Source of the DNA: a virus
Strand: one strand, 5' to 3'
DNA: 35,786 nucleotides
Virus record (IMG/VR): IMGVR_UViG_3300009103_000088
Span: 1 to 35,786 of that record
The number at the start of each line of letters is the position of its first letter. The stretch's first letter is position 1. Below are positions 652 to 27,865 of the stretch, in pieces. Below the pieces are notes generated by a model that had not been told where the DNA came from, made no database searches, and saw nothing but the letters and a program-made list of their open reading frames with translations. A program made the translations under genes and the position numbers.

Positions 652-905
652 TACGCCCTTAAAATTCGTGTACCAGCATGGGGGTGCTTCGTAAGGATAG
701 CCTCCGCTACCCCTGAGTCCCAACCTTTCGGATAGGTACACGGAAATAGGCCTCTGAGGCCATCTTTTAAGTACTTGCAGATAGCCTCGTTACGGATCAT
801 CACCCGCTCCTCCCAATCAGGGTCTAGAGGGCATATAGGAGCGTTACAGCGGTTGAATCTGTCGCAGTCAGTAGGACTTCTTTTTCTTTTTATATCCATT
901 GGCAT
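651..905 (-). CDS. Small Cys-containing phage protein, 84 aa
   Basis: The protein begins MPMDIKRKRSP and contains a compact segment with three cysteines (CDRFNRCNAPICPLDPD), followed by a charged helical stretch (EERVMIRNEAICKYLKDGL) and a tail with one more Cys. The N-terminal segment recalls a small conserved phage protein that I recognise by pattern but cannot name. The start could be 905 or the second ATG at 899. The gene overlaps its upstream neighbour by 38 bases in another frame and ends at the TAATG start of the oxygenase. Function unknown. Confidence 0.6.
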   Translation of the reverse strand: MPMDIKRKRSPTDCDRFNRCNAPICPLDPDWEERVMIRNEAICKYLKDGLRGLFPCTYPKGWDSGVAEAILTKHPHAGTRILRA

Positions 906-1002
906 AGGCCGCTCTGGCCTGTTTCTGGGCGCCCTTCTTGGATGGGTAGGTTTTGCCCCTTTTACCCCACTTGTATCCACCTTTTGTCTTTTTTACTGGC
1001 AT
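868..1002 (-). CDS. Lys/Tyr-rich basic small phage protein, 44 aa
   Basis: A 44-residue, highly basic protein beginning MPVKKTKGGYKWGKRGKTYP, then a QKQARAAYANGYKKK segment and a lysine-rich end. The layout (TKGGYKWGK.GK.YPSKK.A.KQA.A.YA.GYK) matches a small family that recurs in tailed-phage genomes, usually close to structural or lysis genes. It has no assigned function; the charge suggests nucleic-acid contact, which is inference. It is the first gene of the left minus-strand operon. An AT-rich inverted repeat (TTATA..TATAA, 1044-1057, inside GTTTA..TAAAC) lies just upstream and may be part of its promoter. Confidence 0.72.
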   Translation of the reverse strand: MPVKKTKGGYKWGKRGKTYPSKKGAQKQARAAYANGYKKKKKSY

Positions 1003-1502
1003 TTAGTTACCTATTCAAAAATATCCTGAGACGTGGAGGGTGTTTATATATGTATAAGGGTAAACCCCCCGCCCTGTGGCGCGGTCGCCCATTATCACCC
1101 GCGATTCGTCATCCCATGCGCGTACCCCGGAATAATCCCTGCGAGATGCCCGGGATCGGCGAAGGCATCGAAGCCCGGCGGCCTAGTACATCCCCGTATA
1201 TATTTTTTTTTAATCCCGCCGGGTCTGGATCGGCTGGGCTGATACCGCGGGGAACCCTTCACGCGGGCCTTTCCGCGTGGGCCTTGACCCTATGGGCTGG
1301 GGCGGCGGGCGCTGTTCTCGCGCTGTAGGCGAAGCCGAGACCCCGGTCATATACTAATTCCGAGATCGTTCGTTTCCCCCTGCCTGTCCCCCGAGAATCC
1401 ACCAGCCCTCCGGCGCCGGGTATCCACGGCGGCAGGCCGCGGCTGGCTACTCTCCCCCTACACAATCTGAGACGAGACCCTCTGGTTTTTCCCGCCCGGA
1501 CT

Positions 1503-1581
1503 GGTGGAGGCGGCGGGAATCGAACCCGCGTTCCCGGGCCGTCCCGTATGGGCCTTGGCCGGGTCTAGCCATGTCGCCCCC
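1503..1581 (-). ncRNA. tRNA-like/tmRNA-like domain with ACCA end
   Basis: On the minus strand the RNA would start GGGGGCG and end CGCCTCC-ACCA, giving a seven-pair acceptor stem with G·U at the third pair, the AlaRS identity feature shared by tRNA-Ala and tmRNA, and A as discriminator. A perfect T arm (GCGGG-TTCGATT-CCCGC) precedes the acceptor strand. The middle does not fold as a cloverleaf: there is no proper D loop or anticodon arm. Instead there is a GC helix (CCCGGCC with GGCCCGGG) capped by AAGGCCCATACGGGAC. The 5' end GGGGGCGACATGGCTAGAC resembles the start of tmRNAs as I remember them. It could be a minimal tmRNA-like domain, a tRNA mimic, or an attachment site copied from a host tRNA/tmRNA 3' end. 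Confidence 0.55.
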
Positions 1582-1733
1582 GGTAACCCCTTTGGGCTGG
1601 TATCGGTCGGTCTGGCCCCGTGCCGTGACGGGCCTTACAGGCGCTCTGAGGGCCGGATACCATCCCCGGTCACTCCCGGGGAGATATGTAAATATTGCTT
1701 GACATTCTCAATTCGTCAGGAGGCGGCTTGTGC

Positions 1734-1756
1734 TGTCTGTCAGACAACGTCAGACA
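1734..1756. promoter_or_regulatory. Repressor-type dyad, half-site GTCAGACA
   Basis: A perfect dyad TGTCTG-T-CAGACA spans 1734-1746 and is followed 10 bp later by another exact GTCAGACA half-site (1749-1756), one helical turn apart. The same half-site appears as a dyad inside the promoter near 1950. This is the usual appearance of operators for one phage repressor. No CI-like repressor gene is visible in this window. Confidence 0.55.
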
Positions 1757-1846
1757 ATACCTATACCAAGGCATTAGTCCCATCGAGATCGTTCGTTACA
1801 GGCCATTTCAGGAGGTCTTTTTCTCTTTTGTTTTCAACCACTTAAA

Positions 1847-1866
1847 CACTGTATAAATCCACAGAT
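1847..1866. promoter_or_regulatory. LexA/SOS box candidate
   Basis: CTGTATAAATCCACAG at 1849-1864 fits the gammaproteobacterial LexA consensus CTG-N10-CAG, with the favoured AT-rich inner half CTGTATAAAT. It overlaps a -10-like TATAAA (1852-1857) with a weak TTGTTT about 18 bp upstream on the plus strand. A DNA-damage-responsive promoter reading toward the early genes is therefore possible. The other direction is not excluded. Confidence 0.5.
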
Positions 1867-1945
1867 ATTTGACGTGGGCCTGCCGCCTGTGGTACGGGGT
1901 CGATGCCGGAAGTCTTCCCTCTATATGTACCAACAAAATTAGTTG

Positions 1946-1975
1946 TTGACAGACAATGTCTGACGGGTGCATACT
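1946..1975 (+). promoter_or_regulatory. Sigma70-type promoter with operator in the spacer
   Basis: A perfect -35 TTGACA (1946-1951) is followed after 18 bp by CATACT (1970-1975), a fair -10. The dyad CAGACA-A-TGTCTG (1950-1962) sits in the spacer, so a bound repressor would block RNA polymerase. Transcription would start near 1982 and read into the early operon through a structured leader of about 300 bases. The half-site is the same as at 1734-1756. Confidence 0.55.
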
Positions 1976-2220
1976 TGGGCCTGTTGTTCGGTGTGGCCGA
2001 CCTTGAGTCAAACGGCTACGGCGGGGGCCGCGCTGTATCGCGGATAAGCCAAAGGCGAATGCATCCCCCTTGAGACCGTGCTGGAGGTAAGTGCTAGCGG
2101 ATGTTCCCGCGGAGCCAATCACCAGTAAGTCCCCGACAAACGCCTACCTCTGCGCCGCGTCTCCCGCGGCCAAAAGCCGGGACGCCCTTCCCCGGCGAAG
2201 AACGAAGGGCCGCATGGATG

Positions 2221-4073: not shown

Positions 4074-4796
4074 ATGTGGCACAACATTCAATTCAACAGC
4101 GACCTGATCCAGTACCAGACCGAGCGGGCTGTGCTGATCCAACTGCCCGAGGACACACGGCAGTTCTGGCATCCGATCAAGTGCGTTCGGGATGTTCGCC
4201 CCGGGGTTATCAAGATCGGCGTTGCCGATGACATGGTGATCCGGTCGCACGTCCCGGCCCGAGCGGCCAACAGTAACTCCACCATCAAAACCGAGGAGCA
4301 AGAGCATACCCCGGGCGAGTTAATCGCACTGATGGCTGGCAAGTGTGGCAACCCTGACAAGCCCCAGTCCGGGCCTGTCGAGGTCGGCAACCTGTCGGAA
4401 CTGGTCGCCCTGCTGGTCACTGCCAGCGCCCACCTGAAGTTCCCGAAGTTCCGGGTCGCAACGCCATCCGGAGACGCGATTGTCTCCCGGGCTGGTGAGC
4501 GCTCGAAGAACGCGGGCTGGCTGTATGTCAAAAGCCCGGGCGCGTTTGGCGAGTCCACCTACTACGGCAAGGTCAACCCCGACACTGGCGTGTACCTCCC
4601 GTCCCGGGACGCATCGCCTGACGTGGCGGAAGCGCTGAAGCGCTTTGCTGATGACCCGGCCAAGGTAGCCGCCGAGTACGGCAAGTTAAACGGCAACTGC
4701 TGTTTCTGCTCCCGGCCTCTGAGCGACGAGCGCTCGACCGAGGTGGGATACGGCGCGACGTGCGCCAAACACTACGCCCTCCCTTGGGGGGCGTGA
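4074..4796 (+). CDS. DUF6011-like zinc-knuckle protein, 240 aa
   Basis: A 240-residue protein. The C-terminus reads CCFCSRPLSDERSTEVGYGA then TCAKHYALPWG, matching the short DUF6011 zinc-binding module (C-x2-C ... GYG..C..H) found at the ends of many phage and plasmid proteins. The middle (about 115-210) has strands and an alpha segment with KNAGWLYVK and YYGKVNPDTGVYLP, which looks like a small beta domain displaying a feature of the substrate. The N-terminal 60 residues are beta-rich (RAVLIQLPEDTRQFWHPIKC). Function is not established; nucleic-acid or host-protein binding is plausible. It has its own structured leader and strong ribosome binding site. Confidence 0.75.
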   Translation: MWHNIQFNSDLIQYQTERAVLIQLPEDTRQFWHPIKCVRDVRPGVIKIGVADDMVIRSHVPARAANSNSTIKTEEQEHTPGELIALMAGKCGNPDKPQSGPVEVGNLSELVALLVTASAHLKFPKFRVATPSGDAIVSRAGERSKNAGWLYVKSPGAFGESTYYGKVNPDTGVYLPSRDASPDVAEALKRFADDPAKVAAEYGKLNGNCCFCSRPLSDERSTEVGYGATCAKHYALPWGA

Positions 4797-17833: not shown

Positions 17834-18200
17834 GCTTCTTCGTTCCCGGCGATGGGATTATCAGCCCAACCAAGAACGGAAGGAGTAACGGGATGATTAG
17901 AAATGCTCCTACCACCCACCCAGCAACCTCTCCCAGCCTCGCCAGCAGTTCCCACACGGAATCCACCTTCTTCTCGACCGTATGTTCAACCCTTTTTTTG
18001 TGTTCATATATAGTCAAGATTGGCTCCACAATAATTTCTCCCGCAAGATCGCCCGCCGCGGCCCCCACAATTGCCCCGGGTACGCCAGCGGCGACGGCTC
18101 CAGCGGTAGCGGCGACGGTAGTTGTGCCGACCTTAGTTATCGTCCCACAGCCACATAACAATACACAAAATATGGTCATCCATAAAGCGTTTTTCTTCAA
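17823..18200 (-). CDS. Lipoprotein with glycine zipper and membrane segment, 125 aa
   Basis: A TTG start overlaps the stop of the giant gene. The N-terminus MKKNALWMTIFCVLLCGCG ends in a lipobox-like LCGC, so export and lipidation are likely. A glycine/alanine-rich stretch follows (ATAGAVAAGVPGAIVGAAAG), then a charged helix (EHKKRVEHTVEKKVDSVWEL) and a second hydrophobic segment (GAFLIIPLLLPFLVGLII). This resembles lipoproteins placed after the internal-core genes of podoviruses. It may be a spanin-like or envelope-disrupting protein; no direct evidence shows which. Confidence 0.65.
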   Translation of the reverse strand: MKKNALWMTIFCVLLCGCGTITKVGTTTVAATAGAVAAGVPGAIVGAAAGDLAGEIIVEPILTIYEHKKRVEHTVEKKVDSVWELLARLGEVAGWVVGAFLIIPLLLPFLVGLIIPSPGTKKREL

Positions 18201-21200
18201 TTCGTACCCCTCAAACTTCCTAGTGGGTTATCGCTCTCGATGCCCTCCTCAGCCTCTCTTTCAGCCCTTCGGAGAACGATTTTCTTGGCGATACCAGCCT
18301 TCAGTTCAGCGAGGCGGTCGATCTCTTTTCTCTTGTCTTCTGGACTCATATCCTTATCGTCGTAAATAAAGCCAATTCTCTTGTTGATCCTCTGCATGGC
18401 TTCGTTGGCTTTGTTGTAAGTCCTGAGCCAGCGCATTACATCCCTGTTTTCTGAGACCACTGCTCTGGCCTCGTCCACCATCCTTCTTCTTTTATAGGCA
18501 TCAAAAGCCGCCTTCAGTCCCTTGACCTCACCCATCTGGTCATAGAACACGGTTAGGTATTTGGTGGATTTTCGTGGAGAGCCAGAATAGAACGAGCCAG
18601 CAGGGACTAATCCCCGCATCTCATCGATTCTGGTTAGCGGGTCAACGTCACTTGAAAGGATGTCAAAAGCGCCTGCTGTGGTTGCGCCGATCCACCCGAA
18701 GTAACCTTTGATCAGGTGATCCATCTGGACAGGTGAAACGTGTAAACCCGATTCTTTTAATCCGATTAAGTCCAGCATCTCCCCCACAGCCCATGAGGAC
18801 TTAACAGAGAAATCAGACGTGTAAGCCCTGACCCTTAACTCCTTGGGTAGGTTATTCATCTGCCAAGTAATGTTTTCAATCTGGCGGTCAGTGAAGGCAT
18901 TCTTGTTCTGCCACAGTTCGATCATTGGCTTAACGATCTGAGGGCGCCAGTCCATTGCTAACTGGTGTATTAACAAATCAGTGATACGCGCTCGGGTGTA
19001 GTCATTCATGCCCAAGTCGCCCATATCCCGAATAAAGTTTTCGGTGATACGTTCCCCCATTGACGCTATTGCACCAATTTCAAAGGGCTTGGGGAGGAAG
19101 AAGAAGTCCTTCGTGCCGGGGATTTTGATCGGCCAGTAGGTATCCCTCTGCCACTCTTCCAGTTCGTCGTAGTCTTCATCTCCTTCGTTGGAGAGACGTA
19201 GCAGGATGCTGGCAAGGGTTACCAAGCCGACAACACTAAGTAATCTAGCACGTTCCCCTTTGGCCCCTGAGCGGGCTAACTTTGACAAACCTTGCAAACG
19301 TGCATTGAGGAACGGCATCATTCCGATAAGCCATTGGGCCGCAACTCCTCGACCGTGAGCAGAGAAATTCATCAGGTCTCTTGCTTCAAATGATGCTTGG
19401 AGATGCCCGACCTCTTCTTTTCTTTGCAAGTATAAGGAAGCGCGGTTAGCATTCTCCATTCTGTTGCCGATATCTTGATACCAGTTGAACAGAAGGCCCA
19501 TTGCCTTACGCGCCTTGACAGTCTTATCGAGAATCTTATTTTCACCTACCGCATCAACCATCCTACGAATAGCCGCTGGGTCGTCGTTGTAAAAACCAAA
19601 CTGGAATGTTGCCCCACCCATCATCATGTTAGCAGTGACGAGATGGTTATCTTTCAAAGTCTGGTATCCAGTGCTGGCATTACCCAATGCGTTATAGGAA
19701 AGTTTTCCGACTGCAACAGAGTGAACCGTGTCACGGATCATGTTCCTTATCTTGAACGCCGGAGATGCAGTGACGCCGATAGTTAGCCATCGCTTAAACG
19801 TAGACATAGTTCTAAGCGCTTTAGAATCCACACCGCCCCATGCAAGAGATGACATTGCGTTTAAGACAAGAGGATCGTTTACTTCGTACCAGACTTTCTT
19901 GCCGTCCTTCAGAACGTAGACAAAGGAATCGAATTTCTCGCTACGGCTTTTGCCTTTGGAGAATTCGATATTGGCGATATCCTTTGCGCTGGTTAAGAGT
20001 GTTGCCGCACCAGCCTTTGTGGCCGCTTCCATAGCGGCAACGCCAGCACGGTTCTTCATTGCGGCAGACATAATGGCCGTCCAGTTCAGCATCATGCTCT
20101 GGAGGGCATCTTGGATGTTCTCTTCGCTACCGCGAAGACGATTGATAACGCTCTTTATGTTCACAAAGTCGTGAACTGGGGTTGGCCCACGCACCGCGGT
20201 CTTCCCGTCTGAGGTGAACTCCCGGTAGAACGGGACATAGAAATCTGTATCCAATGTCTCTCTAACGGTTTCGTCAATCACTCCAGCATCGACCGCCATC
20301 TGCAAAACAGAGTCCTGCAACTTGGACATCTTCCTCATTGCCTTTTGATAGACGACCCTGCGATCCCGACCGCTTTTCATCTTATTGTTAGGTCGCTGGT
20401 TTAGTTTCAAACCCGCTTTAATTTGGGCTTCTGTAAAGTTCTTTTCCCGATCTTCTTTGGCTAAACGGTTAGCGCGGGTGTAAACCATCCAAGACATGAA
20501 CTGATCGGCTTCGCCTTCAAGGTCTTTCAGAATGTCGAGCAAACCATCCCTTGAGAAGTCCACATCGTACCAATCAAACTCTCCGTTGCGATATCTTGCT
20601 TTGGGGGCGCCATAGTGGAGCATTGCGTGAAGCATCCCGTGGGCGTTCTCTGATAACTGCATCATCTGCCACGCTCGGGTAGCCTGATCACCGAGAAGGT
20701 TCTTGACCGGGCGATAAGCATCGATCCAGTACTGAACGGTTTTCTGCCACCAACCGTTCCGAGCATCGGAGACCAACTCTCCAGCGCTTCGTCTGGCGCT
20801 CCCACCATTCGTTGCGTTAATAGCCGCTTTAGACTCCGCATCCAGACCCGGATTGGTATTGAGGGAAAACACTGGCCCCTCCTCTCCAATGACTGCCCCA
20901 CTTCGCAACTCCATCTGAGCATTGTCTTGAACCCGGGCAAGCATACTGGGATTCTTTCTTTGAAGGGCTTTCAGGAACTGCTGGTAGGTAAACTTCTGGC
21001 TATTGGATTTGGATATTCCAGCAACCCCGTCACCAAACGAGTATTCAAACTGGAACTGGAGGCCATTCATGCCATCGAGTTTTCCGATGGACAGCAACTT
21101 CACGGCTCTCTCAATTTCAGAGAGGTCAACCATATCCGTCTTGTGTCCGTTGTTGTAGGAAACAAACGGGAATGATCCTGCCGCAACAAACGGGTCTTTA

Positions 21201-24200
21201 GCATGATCAGACATCCTGATAACTAACTCTGTACCTGTCTGGGTGTTCTTGAACATCGCATACCGAGAAGTGATGCTGGTGTTAGGAGAGACAACAGGGA
21301 GATGGACATCGATGTTTTTGTAGCCTTTCTTGTAGACCCGCTCGGCTACCTTCATCATGCCGTCCATGTTTCTTCTGAGGCGTAACTCCTCGCTTCGGGT
21401 CAGCACTTTATCCACGGCGCTAATGATGTCGTAGCGTCTGTGTTCCTGCGTCAGGCTTCTGGTCGGAGCGGTGTACTCTGGGAATGCGATAGCCGCCCTT
21501 CCCAGTTGCACATCCCCGCCTTCCATTCTCATAAATCCGGGTAACTGATTGTTCTGACGCATTGCCTTTCTGAGAGACCCTTGGATAGCGTATCCAATCT
21601 CTTTGGGCGTCAGGTTTTTTGGTAGACCCACGTCAATATGCAGGAATTTTTTAATGGCTCTCCAGATGCGCGTCCTGAGAGGTAGAGTGATCTCACTGGT
21701 GTCTTCCGCTATAGCGGCAAGCACTTCCTCAGCAAAACGATCTGTTCCTTCGTTGACCCTGCCGCCGTAGTTAGCCCTGACGCGGTCGTACCACGGCTTG
21801 AAGGTTGTGTCCTTGCCAGCCTCAAGTTCTACAATCAGGTCAGCATAGGCCGTGTCCCCTAGCATTCGCTTGAGGCCAAAATGCGTACCGACCTCATGCA
21901 AAAGAACTTTTGGAGCGGTCAGCCTGTTGAGACGATTCGCTATTAGGTAGGCTGTATTGGTTTTAGGATCGAACAACCCACGGGCGCGTTGAGCCGCGTC
22001 CTGATCCTTAATGAGTCCCGCGGGTAAGTCCGCGGCAGATTCGACAATTACAAGGATGCCGTCTGCTTCAAGACGGGCAATGCCTTTTTCACCAAACTTG
22101 CTAACAAGGGCGCGACGTAGCCCAGAAGCAGAAAACCCGCCAGAGGCGGGCTTGTCGATGGGGATGAGGCTTTGCGCCTCTACGTCTTCATCATCTCTTT
22201 TAGTTCTTCCGGGCTTGCGTCCAGAATCGCCTTGACGTTGTGTTGTACGTCCTGCTCTATCTGTTTTTCGACTTCCTCTGAGGACATAGTCGAATCCCAA
22301 GTCTGGACGTTTCTCGGCGAGGAGTCTTCTTGCCGCTTGCTCATAATCTGTTGCCTCTGATCTCGAATCGGCTACGCCAAGTTTAGCATAAAGGTCTTTT
22401 TCGTGATACCAAAGTACGGCCTGAATATCTGCCGTAGTAATATCGATACCATCTTTTTTAAGCGCATCCTTAACGCCCTGAATAACTGAGCGCATAAATC
22501 CACGCTCTTCGCCATTTCTTGGAGCGTCTTCAAGTTGGTTGTGAATTTCATCGTATCGTTTAATGGTTCTTAATTCATCAGACTTATTCTTATATCCGCC
22601 TCTGGCCCATGCGCCATGTACAGACGCGGCCCATTCAAGGCGTAGTGCTTCATCTTTAAGCAAGTCTTGGCGCTTATATCCATTCAAGTGGGGTTTTACT
22701 AAACGCGCATTCTTTAAAAGGGTTAACAGTTCCTGTTTTGTAGAATTAAGTTTTGAGACGTTTGCAGATGTAAGTAGATTTCCACTAATTCTGTTCCACG
22801 TTCTACTAAACCATAAGTCAGCAGTAAGTGACTCGTAATGGCCGTATAGATTGCCAAAAAAACTGCCGATCTTTGGGCCGAAGATTAACGCTCCCCGGCC
22901 TTCATACGACATCAATTCACCAGAAACCTCAAAACCTCTTTCTTGCAATTGTTTGACAGTAAACGGTGCTTCAAGAAACTCTGTGGTCTGATCCAACCCT
23001 GTACTAGCAATCATCTTTGCAAGAGCCTGATGATTCAGTTTCATCGCTTTGATTGACTTACCAGTACCCCAAATTCGGATTTCTCCCGTGTTACGGTAAT
23101 GCTCGTACTGTTTAACAGCGTTGCGAATATTCTCGTCTACTTCAGTTCCCTGAGATGTAATAGCAAGAAATGCTTTCATTACCATCTCATTGTTTTTGTC
23201 GGTGTTGAGTTCTGGATAGATCACGCCCAACACTTCCATCATGTTCGATACTTTTTCCTCGTACCAGCCAATAGCATTATCTGACTGGCTCAATTGGTAT
23301 CGAACTTCTTCCAACATACTTGCAACGAACTGAGCCTTAGCGGCATCCGAGTAATCGCCAATAGCAATTCGCCCTTGCGCCCTAGTTCTCTCTTGAAGAA
23401 AAACTCCAAGATCAAACTTCCGAATCTTTCCATTTTTGCCAGTGCCTTCAATTGCTGGCTTTTCACGCCCGGTCAATATTCGGACAGTGCTTAGTTTCTT
23501 GGCTCTGGATTTTTGTAAATTGTCAGTAACTGGAAGAGGGAATGAAGCAATTACAGAATCTTTGCCTAGAGTTACGTTACCCCGAGTAAAAAACTTTCCA
23601 ACTGCCGTTTTGTATTTTTCTTTTTGCGCGTTGCTTAAATCTTTTGGCAGGCGAAAACGAATGTTTTCAGAGTCTTCCGCCAAGGTTTCCACTATTGGAG
23701 CAACTTTAGAGTCAATCCAAGATTGCATCTTTTGGGCGGCGGTAAGTTTTCCCAGCGAGAACAGCGGCCCTTCGTCGGTTCGATCTTCCACCCAAGCCTT
23801 GGCATCTTTAAGGCGGGGGAATGTATCCATCCAGTCCCAGTCGAAGTCAGCGTGGTAGTCTGGGTTTTCCTTTGTGGCTCTGTATAACTTCCACTCTCTG
23901 CCGGGGCCGAATGTTTCTTCCGGCTCTGCCTGTACAACCTTGTACTTGGTTCCGTCGCTGGCGGTTAGTTCGTATTCACCCGGGTATACCTTAGTTGTCT
24001 CAGCAAGAGAGAAGGCTACGCTTTCGTCGGCTTTATCCAGCGATGTGTCCTCTAATCTACGGAGAGGAACAGTTACTTGAGGCTCTACGGTGTCAATGTC
24101 GGCTCTTCCAGTTTGGGAAATAAAAACTGGTTTTGGATCGATGGCGTCAAAGTCCTCTACTCGATCCCTATTAAAAAACACATCGACTTCTATCTCATCA

Positions 24201-27200
24201 GTAAGGCCCAGAGAGGTAGCCGCGATCATGCGCCCACGCCCCTCATGCCCGGTTATTTGAAGACCGTTTTTTGTAATCTCTACATTAAGGAATGGAGGAG
24301 CCATCCTGTCCCCCTGCTCCAGACGATCCAGAATCGCCTCGACATTTGAGTCTTCAGTCCGATTTGGGACAAGATTCAAAAACTCCTGCGGCGTCATCTT
24401 GACTAAGATACCTTTGGCAAGGCCGGATTCTTTGGGATACTTCCTGTACTCGGCTTGATCAGGAACAAAGCCCATAGGCTCTTTTTTGTTTTCTATTTTT
24501 CTAGAAAATACAATTGCCTGCCCCTCCAAAGAAAAAGCCGCCTCATCGGCGGCTTCGGTTTCTTCAGCGGCGGTTTCCTGCGGCGGCGCTCTTGGAGCCT
24601 GCCTGTACTGGGCTACTTCTTTGGCCCCGAACTCCTCGGCGATATCGAGGTAATCGGCTCTCCGATCATCAACGTATTGGAGAATACTTCCGAATCCGAG
24701 TCTGCGAATTTCGCTCCTGATGCTTTCTCCAGAAGGGTCTTTAGTCCAGTCGTGGGTTTGCGTTTCGATTTGCGCTGTAAAGAGTTCCGATTTTCTGATG
24801 TCATTGCGCTTTCCGCGTAGTCTCCCGAACCGTCGTGCGAACTGGATCGGGGTAAGTTTTGGATTAGTGACCACTACCTCGAAGTCATTTATCCGGGTAT
24901 AGGTTGCGTCCTCACCAAAGGCCTGTTTGATCTGTCCGACCAGTTGGTTCTCCTGCACCCCTCCCAAGACCTTGTCAAAACGCATAAACGCGGACAGGTT
25001 TCCATCCTCAATAGCGAGGGTGTTGTCAGGGCGAATGGTAGACACAGACGGACGTAGCGTGATCAGCATCTGAGCCAGTGCATATGCCTTGGCTATGTTT
25101 GCCTGATCGGCTTTTCCGGTGAGTGTCAGTATGGAGGCGAGGTCACCCTCGGCTTTGCCGGGGTTCGCTTTTCGGTAGGCTTTGGCAATCTCTGCAAGGA
25201 GAGCGTCGTTGCCTTTCTTGTTGGTGAGGAGTTTCCTCACGCGCTCGATAAACTTTTCTTTACCAGTGCGTTTGAATGAGGACTCTAATGAGGTGAGGGC
25301 GCCAGACGATTGCGGAACAGTGATAGTTGTTCCTTTAACGGGCGCTTTTTTGGTTGGGGTCTGGAGTTCCTGCTCGGTGCGAATAGAGCGGACGTACTGA
25401 TTTAGACGACCTTTGTCAGCCTTAGACCAGCCAGCGATATTCTCCGCTTGGGTAAGAATATCCGATAGACCTTCCTCGTCTACCGTAATCTTGTCACCTT
25501 TTCTGGTGACGAAATTCTTCTCGATGCTGTCTATTATGGACTGAACATTTTCTCTAGGCGGTTGTCTCGCCTCGACCTGAGCCGCCTCTTTCTTCAGCGC
25601 GGCCTGCTTCTTCTCAGTCGTTTCTGGGGCTTTCGCGGCCTGCCCTTCATTTATCCAGAACAGATAATCATCGACAGTGCTTTGACCTACTTCCCGGTTC
25701 CCTGTGTTGGGAACTCGGAGAGTGGGCTTGTTATCAATAGGGATGAGGTGAACACCGTCAGCCTTCTTTGATAACTTGTATCCGGTGGGGGCAAGGACAT
25801 CGTTCAGCGCGTTGATGTTGTCCGGCTTTTCCAGAGCCTTGCGGTAGTTCTGCAAAGCCAAAGCCAAAGGCGGGCGCTTCTTACGCTGTCCCGGGAATAA
25901 GGGTATCTTGTTACGATCCACCGCCCCCTGTAACTTAGCGACAGTTTCGTAGTTGTCGGGTTCTCTTAACTGGGCAAGTTTCCTTGCCGCCTTGTCGGTT
26001 GCTTCTCTGGTATCGAGATCAACATCTCTCTTAGACCTGTCTGTTGCCTGAGTCTCAAGTTCACCGATCTCAACTTCTGTATCGAGAGTTGTTTCAACGT
26101 CCTGTCTGGCAAGTCTATCTGCCTCTTGTTCAAGTTTCTGAGATAGAACAGGTTTAGTTTCACTCGTTTCCGCAACTTTAGGAACCGCGGCCAGTTGCAT
26201 TCCCTTGGGCGATACAACCAGTTCCACATTATCCCAATTGCCACGCATGATTACCGAGGAAACGGGAACCTTAACAAGGACAACATCCTGACCGCCAAAG
26301 TTTTGGCCTTTCTTATCGGTCTTCCCTTTCCTTGCACTCACCCTGCCGCGACTGAGGCTTCCCTTTATAGGAGTGGAAAGCGATCCCCCTGCCGCTAGTG
26401 TGGCCTGCTCCTCTTTGGTGAGAGCAACGTAAAATGGAATCACGCCATTCGGATATGTGTCTTCTGTTTGGAGCGCGGATTGCAAAGACAATCTGTAGTT
26501 CGCAAACCCTTCCAGAGTCAGGGCAGTTCTAAGGGAATCAACCACAGACTGGGCGTTGTCCGCCTCACCTATATCTTCTTCAAAAGCGGCAATAGGCTCT
26601 GAGACTGTATCCAGTTGTGCGCTTACGCCATCTTTCTGGCGGCGCAGTGCCTCGTTTAATTCCTCTGGCTCAATACCGCTGGCTTCTCCTTTATGGACAG
26701 CATCTGCCTGTTGGCGTAATGACTCTTTTGTAGCCTTCTGTAGAAGTTGCTTTGACCCAGATAAAGACGCAGAGACAGATGCCTGCACAGCGGACTGGGC
26801 GGTACTGCCCAGCATTTCAAGGGCGATGTCTTCAAACGAAGTTTCACCGAATGCGGCAAGTCCGCCGAGACCTTCACCAACCCCCTCACCGAGGGTTTCA
26901 ATCGTCATCCTTTTAGTGCCGATTGCTTTGGCCCTTGGGGCTTCTGCATACTTCTTGAATGCCGCGGTTACTGCCCCATCGCCCTCTGCGTGTCTAACGG
27001 CGATCTTTTCCCAGTCGGCATTCTTCTTAATATCAATGCCTTCTTTAAGAAGGTCTTTGCGTAACTCACGCCCCGCCTTGGTTCCGGGCATCTTTGAGAG
27101 GCCCATAAACGCGGCATCAACTATTCCGATGGTAAGGCCTTTGGTGTAGCCTTTTTTGTACATTTCGCGCTGGAATTCAGGATCAGAGATGGCTTTCTGC

Positions 27201-27865
27201 ACCGCCGCCTCATTCGTAACATCGATACCCGCCTTCATCAGGGCTTCAATATAAGCCGCTCCTGTTTCGACCGATGCTCCTGCCGTTCCCGCCCCAACTC
27301 TGGAGCCAATCGCGATACCAAGAGGCCCACCCGGCGATCCAGCCAAAGCGCCAGCAAACATACCGCCAACAGCAACAGCCATGTTGCCTGCCTGCGATGC
27401 GCCAAACTCCGCTACACCAAGAGGGTTAGTGACAGCCGTCCAGATGGTTTTCCCCGCGGCATCGAGTACAGCCAACGAGGTATTAGCAAAGCCCTCTGCA
27501 TCCTTTACATCCTTGCTTTCTCTACCAACCACATCGAGCAGATACTTATGCTGGGCGCTTTTTGCTACCTCATGCTGTCTTCGAGAAGTTTCCGCAACGA
27601 TCCGTGCAATTTCTTCTTCGTTACCTTCAGCCCCGTCCAAGCCTAATGAAGCAAGACTTATGTAGTCATACGCATCAGCAAACGATTTTTTGATGTGCGC
27701 CCAGAAACCGCTTTCTGGTTTTTGCTCAATTACAGGCTGAGGATAATCCTTAAACTGGTCAAATATTGAGTCAAAACTAGAACTTGGCTGACCCTGTTGA
27801 ACGGCATTTGCTGGAGGTGCTTGAGTCTTGAACTGATCGAAAATAGAGTCGAATCTACTTGCCAT
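18197..27865 (-). CDS. Giant polyvalent virion protein, 3222 aa
   Basis: The largest gene here, placed like the internal core/ejection proteins of podoviruses. In order: two copies of FDSIFDQFK (5-13 and 31-39); a glycine-zipper region with MAVAVGGMFAGALAG (about 150-215); a ParB/Srx-like module with ITGHEGRGRMIAA (about 1150-1240); a DUF7178-like part ending SLTADLWFSRTWNRISG (about 1480-1700); a zincin with LHEVGTHFG (HEVGTH 1990-1995) and DRFAEEVLA downstream; and an LPD38-like C-terminal region (about 2350-2900) with TASPAFKIRNMIRD and NFSAHGRGVAAQWLIG, followed by a hydrophobic helix (LLSVVGLVTLASILLRL). Junctions of the form [DE]E-x(2-3)-FSL occur at about 1111, 1285, 1369 and 2333. Polyvalent proteins are thought to enter the host with phage DNA. 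Domain limits are approximate. Confidence 0.82.
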   Translation of the reverse strand: MASRFDSIFDQFKTQAPPANAVQQGQPSSSFDSIFDQFKDYPQPVIEQKPESGFWAHIKKSFADAYDYISLASLGLDGAEGNEEEIARIVAETSRRQHEVAKSAQHKYLLDVVGRESKDVKDAEGFANTSLAVLDAAGKTIWTAVTNPLGVAEFGASQAGNMAVAVGGMFAGALAGSPGGPLGIAIGSRVGAGTAGASVETGAAYIEALMKAGIDVTNEAAVQKAISDPEFQREMYKKGYTKGLTIGIVDAAFMGLSKMPGTKAGRELRKDLLKEGIDIKKNADWEKIAVRHAEGDGAVTAAFKKYAEAPRAKAIGTKRMTIETLGEGVGEGLGGLAAFGETSFEDIALEMLGSTAQSAVQASVSASLSGSKQLLQKATKESLRQQADAVHKGEASGIEPEELNEALRRQKDGVSAQLDTVSEPIAAFEEDIGEADNAQSVVDSLRTALTLEGFANYRLSLQSALQTEDTYPNGVIPFYVALTKEEQATLAAGGSLSTPIKGSLSRGRVSARKGKTDKKGQNFGGQDVVLVKVPVSSVIMRGNWDNVELVVSPKGMQLAAVPKVAETSETKPVLSQKLEQEADRLARQDVETTLDTEVEIGELETQATDRSKRDVDLDTREATDKAARKLAQLREPDNYETVAKLQGAVDRNKIPLFPGQRKKRPPLALALQNYRKALEKPDNINALNDVLAPTGYKLSKKADGVHLIPIDNKPTLRVPNTGNREVGQSTVDDYLFWINEGQAAKAPETTEKKQAALKKEAAQVEARQPPRENVQSIIDSIEKNFVTRKGDKITVDEEGLSDILTQAENIAGWSKADKGRLNQYVRSIRTEQELQTPTKKAPVKGTTITVPQSSGALTSLESSFKRTGKEKFIERVRKLLTNKKGNDALLAEIAKAYRKANPGKAEGDLASILTLTGKADQANIAKAYALAQMLITLRPSVSTIRPDNTLAIEDGNLSAFMRFDKVLGGVQENQLVGQIKQAFGEDATYTRINDFEVVVTNPKLTPIQFARRFGRLRGKRNDIRKSELFTAQIETQTHDWTKDPSGESIRSEIRRLGFGSILQYVDDRRADYLDIAEEFGAKEVAQYRQAPRAPPQETAAEETEAADEAAFSLEGQAIVFSRKIENKKEPMGFVPDQAEYRKYPKESGLAKGILVKMTPQEFLNLVPNRTEDSNVEAILDRLEQGDRMAPPFLNVEITKNGLQITGHEGRGRMIAATSLGLTDEIEVDVFFNRDRVEDFDAIDPKPVFISQTGRADIDTVEPQVTVPLRRLEDTSLDKADESVAFSLAETTKVYPGEYELTASDGTKYKVVQAEPEETFGPGREWKLYRATKENPDYHADFDWDWMDTFPRLKDAKAWVEDRTDEGPLFSLGKLTAAQKMQSWIDSKVAPIVETLAEDSENIRFRLPKDLSNAQKEKYKTAVGKFFTRGNVTLGKDSVIASFPLPVTDNLQKSRAKKLSTVRILTGREKPAIEGTGKNGKIRKFDLGVFLQERTRAQGRIAIGDYSDAAKAQFVASMLEEVRYQLSQSDNAIGWYEEKVSNMMEVLGVIYPELNTDKNNEMVMKAFLAITSQGTEVDENIRNAVKQYEHYRNTGEIRIWGTGKSIKAMKLNHQALAKMIASTGLDQTTEFLEAPFTVKQLQERGFEVSGELMSYEGRGALIFGPKIGSFFGNLYGHYESLTADLWFSRTWNRISGNLLTSANVSKLNSTKQELLTLLKNARLVKPHLNGYKRQDLLKDEALRLEWAASVHGAWARGGYKNKSDELRTIKRYDEIHNQLEDAPRNGEERGFMRSVIQGVKDALKKDGIDITTADIQAVLWYHEKDLYAKLGVADSRSEATDYEQAARRLLAEKRPDLGFDYVLRGSRKTDRAGRTTQRQGDSGRKPGRTKRDDEDVEAQSLIPIDKPASGGFSASGLRRALVSKFGEKGIARLEADGILVIVESAADLPAGLIKDQDAAQRARGLFDPKTNTAYLIANRLNRLTAPKVLLHEVGTHFGLKRMLGDTAYADLIVELEAGKDTTFKPWYDRVRANYGGRVNEGTDRFAEEVLAAIAEDTSEITLPLRTRIWRAIKKFLHIDVGLPKNLTPKEIGYAIQGSLRKAMRQNNQLPGFMRMEGGDVQLGRAAIAFPEYTAPTRSLTQEHRRYDIISAVDKVLTRSEELRLRRNMDGMMKVAERVYKKGYKNIDVHLPVVSPNTSITSRYAMFKNTQTGTELVIRMSDHAKDPFVAAGSFPFVSYNNGHKTDMVDLSEIERAVKLLSIGKLDGMNGLQFQFEYSFGDGVAGISKSNSQKFTYQQFLKALQRKNPSMLARVQDNAQMELRSGAVIGEEGPVFSLNTNPGLDAESKAAINATNGGSARRSAGELVSDARNGWWQKTVQYWIDAYRPVKNLLGDQATRAWQMMQLSENAHGMLHAMLHYGAPKARYRNGEFDWYDVDFSRDGLLDILKDLEGEADQFMSWMVYTRANRLAKEDREKNFTEAQIKAGLKLNQRPNNKMKSGRDRRVVYQKAMRKMSKLQDSVLQMAVDAGVIDETVRETLDTDFYVPFYREFTSDGKTAVRGPTPVHDFVNIKSVINRLRGSEENIQDALQSMMLNWTAIMSAAMKNRAGVAAMEAATKAGAATLLTSAKDIANIEFSKGKSRSEKFDSFVYVLKDGKKVWYEVNDPLVLNAMSSLAWGGVDSKALRTMSTFKRWLTIGVTASPAFKIRNMIRDTVHSVAVGKLSYNALGNASTGYQTLKDNHLVTANMMMGGATFQFGFYNDDPAAIRRMVDAVGENKILDKTVKARKAMGLLFNWYQDIGNRMENANRASLYLQRKEEVGHLQASFEARDLMNFSAHGRGVAAQWLIGMMPFLNARLQGLSKLARSGAKGERARLLSVVGLVTLASILLRLSNEGDEDYDELEEWQRDTYWPIKIPGTKDFFFLPKPFEIGAIASMGERITENFIRDMGDLGMNDYTRARITDLLIHQLAMDWRPQIVKPMIELWQNKNAFTDRQIENITWQMNNLPKELRVRAYTSDFSVKSSWAVGEMLDLIGLKESGLHVSPVQMDHLIKGYFGWIGATTAGAFDILSSDVDPLTRIDEMRGLVPAGSFYSGSPRKSTKYLTVFYDQMGEVKGLKAAFDAYKRRRMVDEARAVVSENRDVMRWLRTYNKANEAMQRINKRIGFIYDDKDMSPEDKRKEIDRLAELKAGIAKKIVLRRAEREAEEGIESDNPLGSLRGTN

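Follow-up and report, generated by a model that had tools for sequence, protein, structure and literature searches.

A tRNA-like domain gene within a noncoding phage block

The stretch of DNA analyzed here (hereafter the window) comprises the 35,786 bases of IMG/VR virus record IMGVR_UViG_3300009103_000088. Positions 1003-2220 form a block flanked by leftward genes on one side and by a rightward operon with an ArdC-like antirestriction gene on the other. Open reading frames overlapping the block had no Pfam matches at E<=0.1, and just two PHROG matches, both marginal (E 0.014 and 0.037). In the absence of a convincing protein family match, a protein-coding reading of 1003-2220 was rejected, in agreement with an earlier first-pass annotation that had called it gene-free. 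Positions 1502-1581 on the minus strand encode a stand-alone tRNA-like domain (TLD) of tmRNA, in which a P2 stem and a mini-hairpin replace the mRNA-like/pseudoknot part. Its features are as follows:

1502-1581, minus strand: TLD-only (tag-less) tmRNA gene, 80 nt (Rfam RF00023, 52.4 bits; model R2, 69.0 bits)
1575-1581, minus strand: acceptor stem 5' strand GGGGGCG, forming 7/7 pairs with 1506-1512 and holding G3 of G3-U70
1563-1574, minus strand: stemless D-loop ACATGGCTAGAC, whose final C starts P2 (alignments A1 and A2)
1557-1563, minus strand: P2 stem 5' strand CCCGGCC (minimum-energy fold; P2 covaries across the class described below)
1543-1552, minus strand: apical mini-hairpin CCC-ATAC-GGG, at the place of the mRNA-like domain (fold)
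1533-1540, minus strand: P2 stem 3' strand GGCCCGGG, with one bulged base (fold)
1513-1529, minus strand: T-arm GCGGG-TTCGATT-CCCGC (Rfam alignment, fold)
1506-1512, minus strand: acceptor stem 3' strand CGCCTCC, with U70 (Rfam alignment, fold)
1502-1505, minus strand: discriminator A and encoded CCA (Rfam alignment)

The predicted fold of the RNA (GGGGGCGACATGGCTAGACCCGGCCAAGGCCCATACGGGACGGCCCGGGAACGCGGGTTCGATTCCCGCCGCCTCCACCA) consists of a 7-bp acceptor with G3-U70, a stemless D-loop, P2 with its apical hairpin, a T-arm and CCA; the acceptor, D-loop and T-arm are those of the tRNA-like domain of tmRNA. A covariance-model search, as the first-pass annotation had proposed, was run with cmscan and all Rfam 15 models, and matched 1502-1581 on the minus strand to RF00023 (52.4 bits, gathering score 47, E 5e-18). 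The match includes both model position 1 and model position 374, and about 20 nt bridge 314 of the 374 model positions, such that the mRNA-like domain is missing. The RF00023 alignment contained no resume codon, tag reading frame or tmRNA pseudoknots in 1502-1581. The GA of the D-loop aligns to G19-A20 of Escherichia coli tmRNA, the SmpB contact (alignments A1 and A2). This D-loop is one base below the canonical length (GGCUAGAC); a short form (GGUAAGAC) is shared by several other class members. There was no clear minus-strand promoter directly upstream of the gene, and a permuted two-piece tmRNA (RF04321, with the 3' half upstream of the 5' half) was rejected, scoring 26.4 bits against a gathering score of 47, whereas the standard order fits.

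GOLLD and ROOL RNAs are noncoding and phage-borne, and often lie near tRNAs; the first-pass annotation had offered a large, ornate RNA of this type as an explanation for the block. Its noncoding RNA reading stands insofar as an RNA is present, but the RNA is an 80-nt TLD-only tmRNA, and the tRNA-like 3' end it had noticed, while real, was under-read, being the 3' end of a complete TLD with a matching 5' half. The cmscan search yielded no GOLLD, ROOL or similar RNA at gathering scores in the window, and none among E<=5 matches in 900-2400. As a positive control, the same search detected GOLLD in Mycobacterium phage SirSheldon (L124, 2300-2713, 216 bits), where an unannotated full tmRNA and two tRNAs lie in the same 3-kb stretch. 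The GOLLD/ROOL reading was rejected given the lack of an Rfam match. It is likewise very improbable that a larger structured RNA of GOLLD or ROOL type fills the block with the TLD as one part. The flanking noncoding block is partly kept in two relatives (L196 and L199), but Rfam large-RNA models have no match in the window, a relative retains the block without the TLD, and the folding energies of the block are no better than its composition gives. Mean folding z-scores over 120-nt windows in 1003-2220 were -0.20 (plus) and -0.38 (minus), versus -0.61 (plus) and -0.60 (minus) at 37 other places in the window, and 1663-1782 was the sole 120-nt stretch of the block with a z-score of about -2. Excess structure across the block was rejected on these ordinary values, contrary to its earlier description as highly structured and full of stable dyads. 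The letters for the alternative pairings proposed at 1594-1604/1656-1681 are present, but comparison by eye gave them no support, and the long-range stem is mismatched in L196.

Elsewhere in this phage, the product of 868-1002 (minus strand) is a lysine-rich protein of 44 aa that matches phrog_31267 (E 3e-6) and has an equivalent in the corresponding position of relative L196. The largest gene (18197-27865, minus strand) encodes 3,222 aa, including an LPD38 domain; its product is probably a polyvalent internal virion protein.

Relatives and regulatory elements around the gene

Three further elements of the block provide context for the RNA gene:

1946-1975, plus strand: sigma-70-like promoter TTGACA-18-CATACT (1 found, 0.6 expected) serving the rightward operon; its spacer holds an operator dyad
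1734-1756, no strand: operator-like repeats TGTCTGTCAGACAACGTCAGACA, not part of the RNA
1686-1705, no strand: 20-bp element ATGTAAATATTGCTTGACAT, identical in L196

The two related operator-type dyads reported previously are present, with three copies of GTCAGACA in the block versus 0.94 expected in the whole window. The operator-like motif TGTCNGACA is repeated in the block, and the homologous block of L196 carries three perfect instances of it; perfect TGTCGGACA copies lie at 4282, 4481 and 4501 of L196. The 20-bp element at 1686-1705 is probably regulatory; two matches to it elsewhere, both in coding DNA (L206, L207), were judged to be due to chance. The sequence previously read as an SOS box (CTGTATAAATCCACAG, 1849-1864) does exist, but matches arose in 27 of 100 shuffles and it is missing from the aligned L196, and so it was rejected as not above chance and without a counterpart.

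Pieces of the block are kept in a relative at 57-70% (L196/L198; L197 and L200 are apparently the same virus), and the TLD is absent from the homologous site of L196/L198. In a third relative, L199, the sequence breaks off immediately ahead of the TLD site. Because a related phage (L196) with the same block lacks the gene, the TLD is accessory rather than essential to the lineage, and sits as an accessory gene inside a partly conserved regulatory block. The noncoding block also contains a variable tandem repeat, a 13-bp unit of the CGGCGGCAGGCCA type, present in one copy at 1415-1435 of the window, and in two and about three copies at the homologous places in L196 and L199, respectively.

Fold, covariation and distribution of the viral class

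Scanning IMG/VR for two tmRNA ends 20-50 nt apart gave 106 stretches, and a further 11 with a gap of 51-81 nt; tRNA-Ala, fragments inside full tmRNAs and chance matches were removed from the class by hand. The class comprises 94 IMG/VR loci (<95 nt, at least 6 of 7 acceptor pairs) in 59 clusters at 85% identity. No exact match to the window RNA's own 5' end was found in IMG/VR. Most members share a 6-8-bp P2, an internal loop rich in A, a 3-5-bp mini-hairpin (often GCCGCANGCGG) and GGAC before the T-arm, while in a minority of about 66-73 nt P2 stands alone. An independent model (R2), built from 39 other sequences and excluding the window, scored the window at 69.0 bits, indicating that its compact fold is common to other viral TLD-only RNAs. 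ARAGORN made no call at 1502-1581, and misses nearly all other class members or calls false tags. A second compact viral form was also observed (L109, L110, L113, L115 and L117), whose members span about 108 nt and share these tmRNA ends, with a longer insert and no obvious tag.

Compensatory changes, which the first-pass annotation had suggested seeking in related phages, were evident for the TLD across the class. In the 55 sequences of alignment A1, the window among them, 94.3% of cells were paired versus 73.7% when shuffled, the covariation score was 0.507 versus 0.116 when shuffled, and pairing fell to 57-62% when partners were slid by one column. The scan pattern itself fixes part of the acceptor and T-stem, and hence the genuine test lies in the free pairs and P2. 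Of 60 sequences, 100%, 95% and 100% formed acceptor pairs 5-68, 6-67 and 7-66, respectively, and in P2 5.05 of 6 positions were paired, compared with 2.81 +/- 0.14 when partners were swapped. The P2 result is cleaner than the acceptor-pair figure, since the loci were prefiltered for at least 6 of 7 acceptor pairs.

These patterns bear on two other origins for the gene. Phages commonly carry full and permuted tmRNAs, and the gene is missing in a close relative, as might be expected if it were the decaying, functionless leftover of a full phage tmRNA gene whose middle had been deleted. Yet the compact form recurs in 59 divergent clusters with compensatory changes and with P2, the mini-hairpin and G3-U70 conserved, and because remnants would not covary we regard this origin as quite unlikely for the class. 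Some prophages integrate in ssrA, and the RNA might instead be a phage attachment site, i.e., the 3' end of host ssrA carried as attP following integration into the host tmRNA gene. Many bacterial ssrA genes match the last 30 nt of the window RNA, and one match (H100) is annotated as attR. However, attP would retain the 3' end only, whereas this RNA also has the D-loop and a 5' acceptor strand that pairs 7/7. Class-wide covariation further shows selection on the RNA, and a tyrosine integrase was found in just 5 of 50 class contigs (many of them fragments), in no case near the RNA. The attachment-site reading is extremely improbable, being refuted by the paired 5' half and by integrases that are few and distant.

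The same pattern applied to 257 Gb of bacterial and archaeal genomes returned 59 stretches, the majority of them parts of full tmRNAs or of tRNAs. A clear fit to the class model (57-80 bits) was seen for five (L130, L157, L158, L172 and L180), and L157 is identical to the viral L032. Six bacterial MAG contigs (L133, L136, L154, L160, L178 and L186) carry tRNA-like genes of 71-74 nt that have G3-U70 but lack a D-stem and score 47-53 bits against model R1; these are either D-armless tRNAs or further TLD-like RNAs.

Among isolated viruses, the RNA occurs in eight Streptomyces phages (pSt2308, Riptide, BRock, LuckySocke, Tomas, Shaeky, Alone3 and Naboo), while GiJojo was matched by BLAST only. In the seven Streptomyces phages with gene annotations, no feature is recorded under the match, which lies among tRNA genes (e.g., between tRNA-Phe and tRNA-Leu in Shaeky), as one would expect if the RNA is expressed and matured by tRNA processing. 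In the Streptomyces phage RNAs, G3-U70, the alanine identity element, is kept while acceptor pairs 4 to 6 vary (e.g., GGGUUUG/CAAAUCC). The structure, its covariation, the retained identity elements, the lack of a reading frame and the wide distribution in phages are all established computationally.

Other isolate phages (L118-L128) had full or permuted tmRNAs, partial matches, or no match at the gathering score, and none had a TLD-only form. Genes for permuted two-piece tmRNA (RF04321, 103-124 bits) lacking a tmRNA annotation were observed in Xanthomonas phage Rb1 (L120), Alcaligenes phage QDWS595 (L121), Acinetobacter phage BUCT628 (L123) and Stenotrophomonas phage Moby (L128). In Tunturiibacter phage Tunturi_4 (L119), two ribosome-rescue elements adjoin: an annotated RF-1-domain (ArfB-like) release factor (1616-2377) lies directly upstream of an unannotated permuted tmRNA.

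Possible interference with host ribosome rescue, and known systems

As the likeliest reading, we consider it somewhat probable that the 80-nt RNA is an alanylatable decoy that blocks host trans-translation. The RNA would be processed like a tRNA, charged with alanine through G3-U70, and bound by host SmpB (via the D-loop GA) and EF-Tu. Neither SmpB nor a full-length tmRNA was found in 50 class contigs, many of which are fragments that make these absences soft, and therefore any partner would be the host's. Host tmRNA would face competition, either through titration of SmpB or through entry of the RNA into stalled ribosomes, and, with no resume codon or tag in the RNA, trans-translation would be blocked. 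Proteins from stalled ribosomes, phage proteins included, would then escape tagging for proteolysis. We infer that the window RNA is expressed and charged, that it binds SmpB and that it acts as an inhibitor. Host tmRNA is needed by some phages, so that inhibition need not always be of benefit.

The decoy reading draws on the role of the D-loop GA in SmpB contact, on ribosome binding by truncated tmRNA, and on the precedent of mycobacteriophage DS6A. G19 of E. coli tmRNA stacks on SmpB, with G19C blocking both binding and trans-translation, and, together with SmpB and EF-Tu, a truncated tmRNA attaches to the ribosome (PMC8363625). DS6A is reported to carry little more than a TLD (Mao et al. 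2009, via PMC4131195 and PMC11915505), and a DS6A-like molecule, chargeable or not, strongly inhibited tmRNA in E. coli, perhaps via SmpB titration (PMC4131195, PMC11915505).

Alternatively, the RNA could help rescue: a minimal rescue RNA acting with host SmpB would take the stalled peptide on its alanine and free the ribosome without a tag. Charging and SmpB determinants are all retained, the tRNA-array location in isolates suggests a role in translation support, and tag-less organellar tmRNAs, for which such a role has been suggested, exist (PMC11915505). We find this doubtful, as an RNA with neither a resume codon nor a stop codon has no known release route, an RF-1-domain release factor was found in just 1 of the 50 class contigs, and the one reported test of a similar molecule gave tmRNA inhibition (PMC4131195). 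Sequence cannot separate a decoy from a minimal rescue RNA.

Viewed as decoys, these RNAs suggest that many phages use a stripped-down RNA to interfere with host ribosome rescue. More tentatively, stand-alone TLDs with P2 plus mini-hairpin may represent a widespread, largely unannotated family of viral RNAs in unrelated phages, which possibly evolved as anti-rescue RNAs that shut down host trans-translation in infected cells by hijacking SmpB, EF-Tu and alanyl-tRNA synthetase. The class now takes in dozens of contigs along with eight or more isolated Streptomyces phages, and with isolates in hand it can be tested directly whether phages block or borrow host ribosome rescue. The ARAGORN misses reveal a blind spot for TLD-only tmRNAs.

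Several known RNAs resemble the window RNA in part. GOLLD and ROOL share its noncoding, phage-borne nature, but the RNA here is 80 nt and matches neither model. Full or permuted phage tmRNAs (e.g., SirSheldon and Moby) are also phage-borne with tRNA-like ends, but have a tag and mRNA-like domain or are circularly permuted, whereas the window RNA has the standard end order and no tag. The tag-less tmRNAs of jakobid mitochondria and Mallomonadaceae plastids similarly lack a coding sequence (those of plastids are about 65 nt; PMC11915505) but, unlike the window RNA, were retained by descent and are not viral. Closest by description is the TLD-only tmRNA of DS6A (tmID 11587), likewise phage-borne and little more than a TLD, and the one phage example named in the papers cited (PMC4131195, PMC11915505). 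The present RNA differs in occurring in an unrelated phage and in belonging to a widespread class with a shared P2 plus mini-hairpin. What this analysis adds is a member from an unrelated group of phages, a covarying consensus fold, the RNA's unannotated presence in isolates, and the failure of a standard tRNA/tmRNA finder to detect it.
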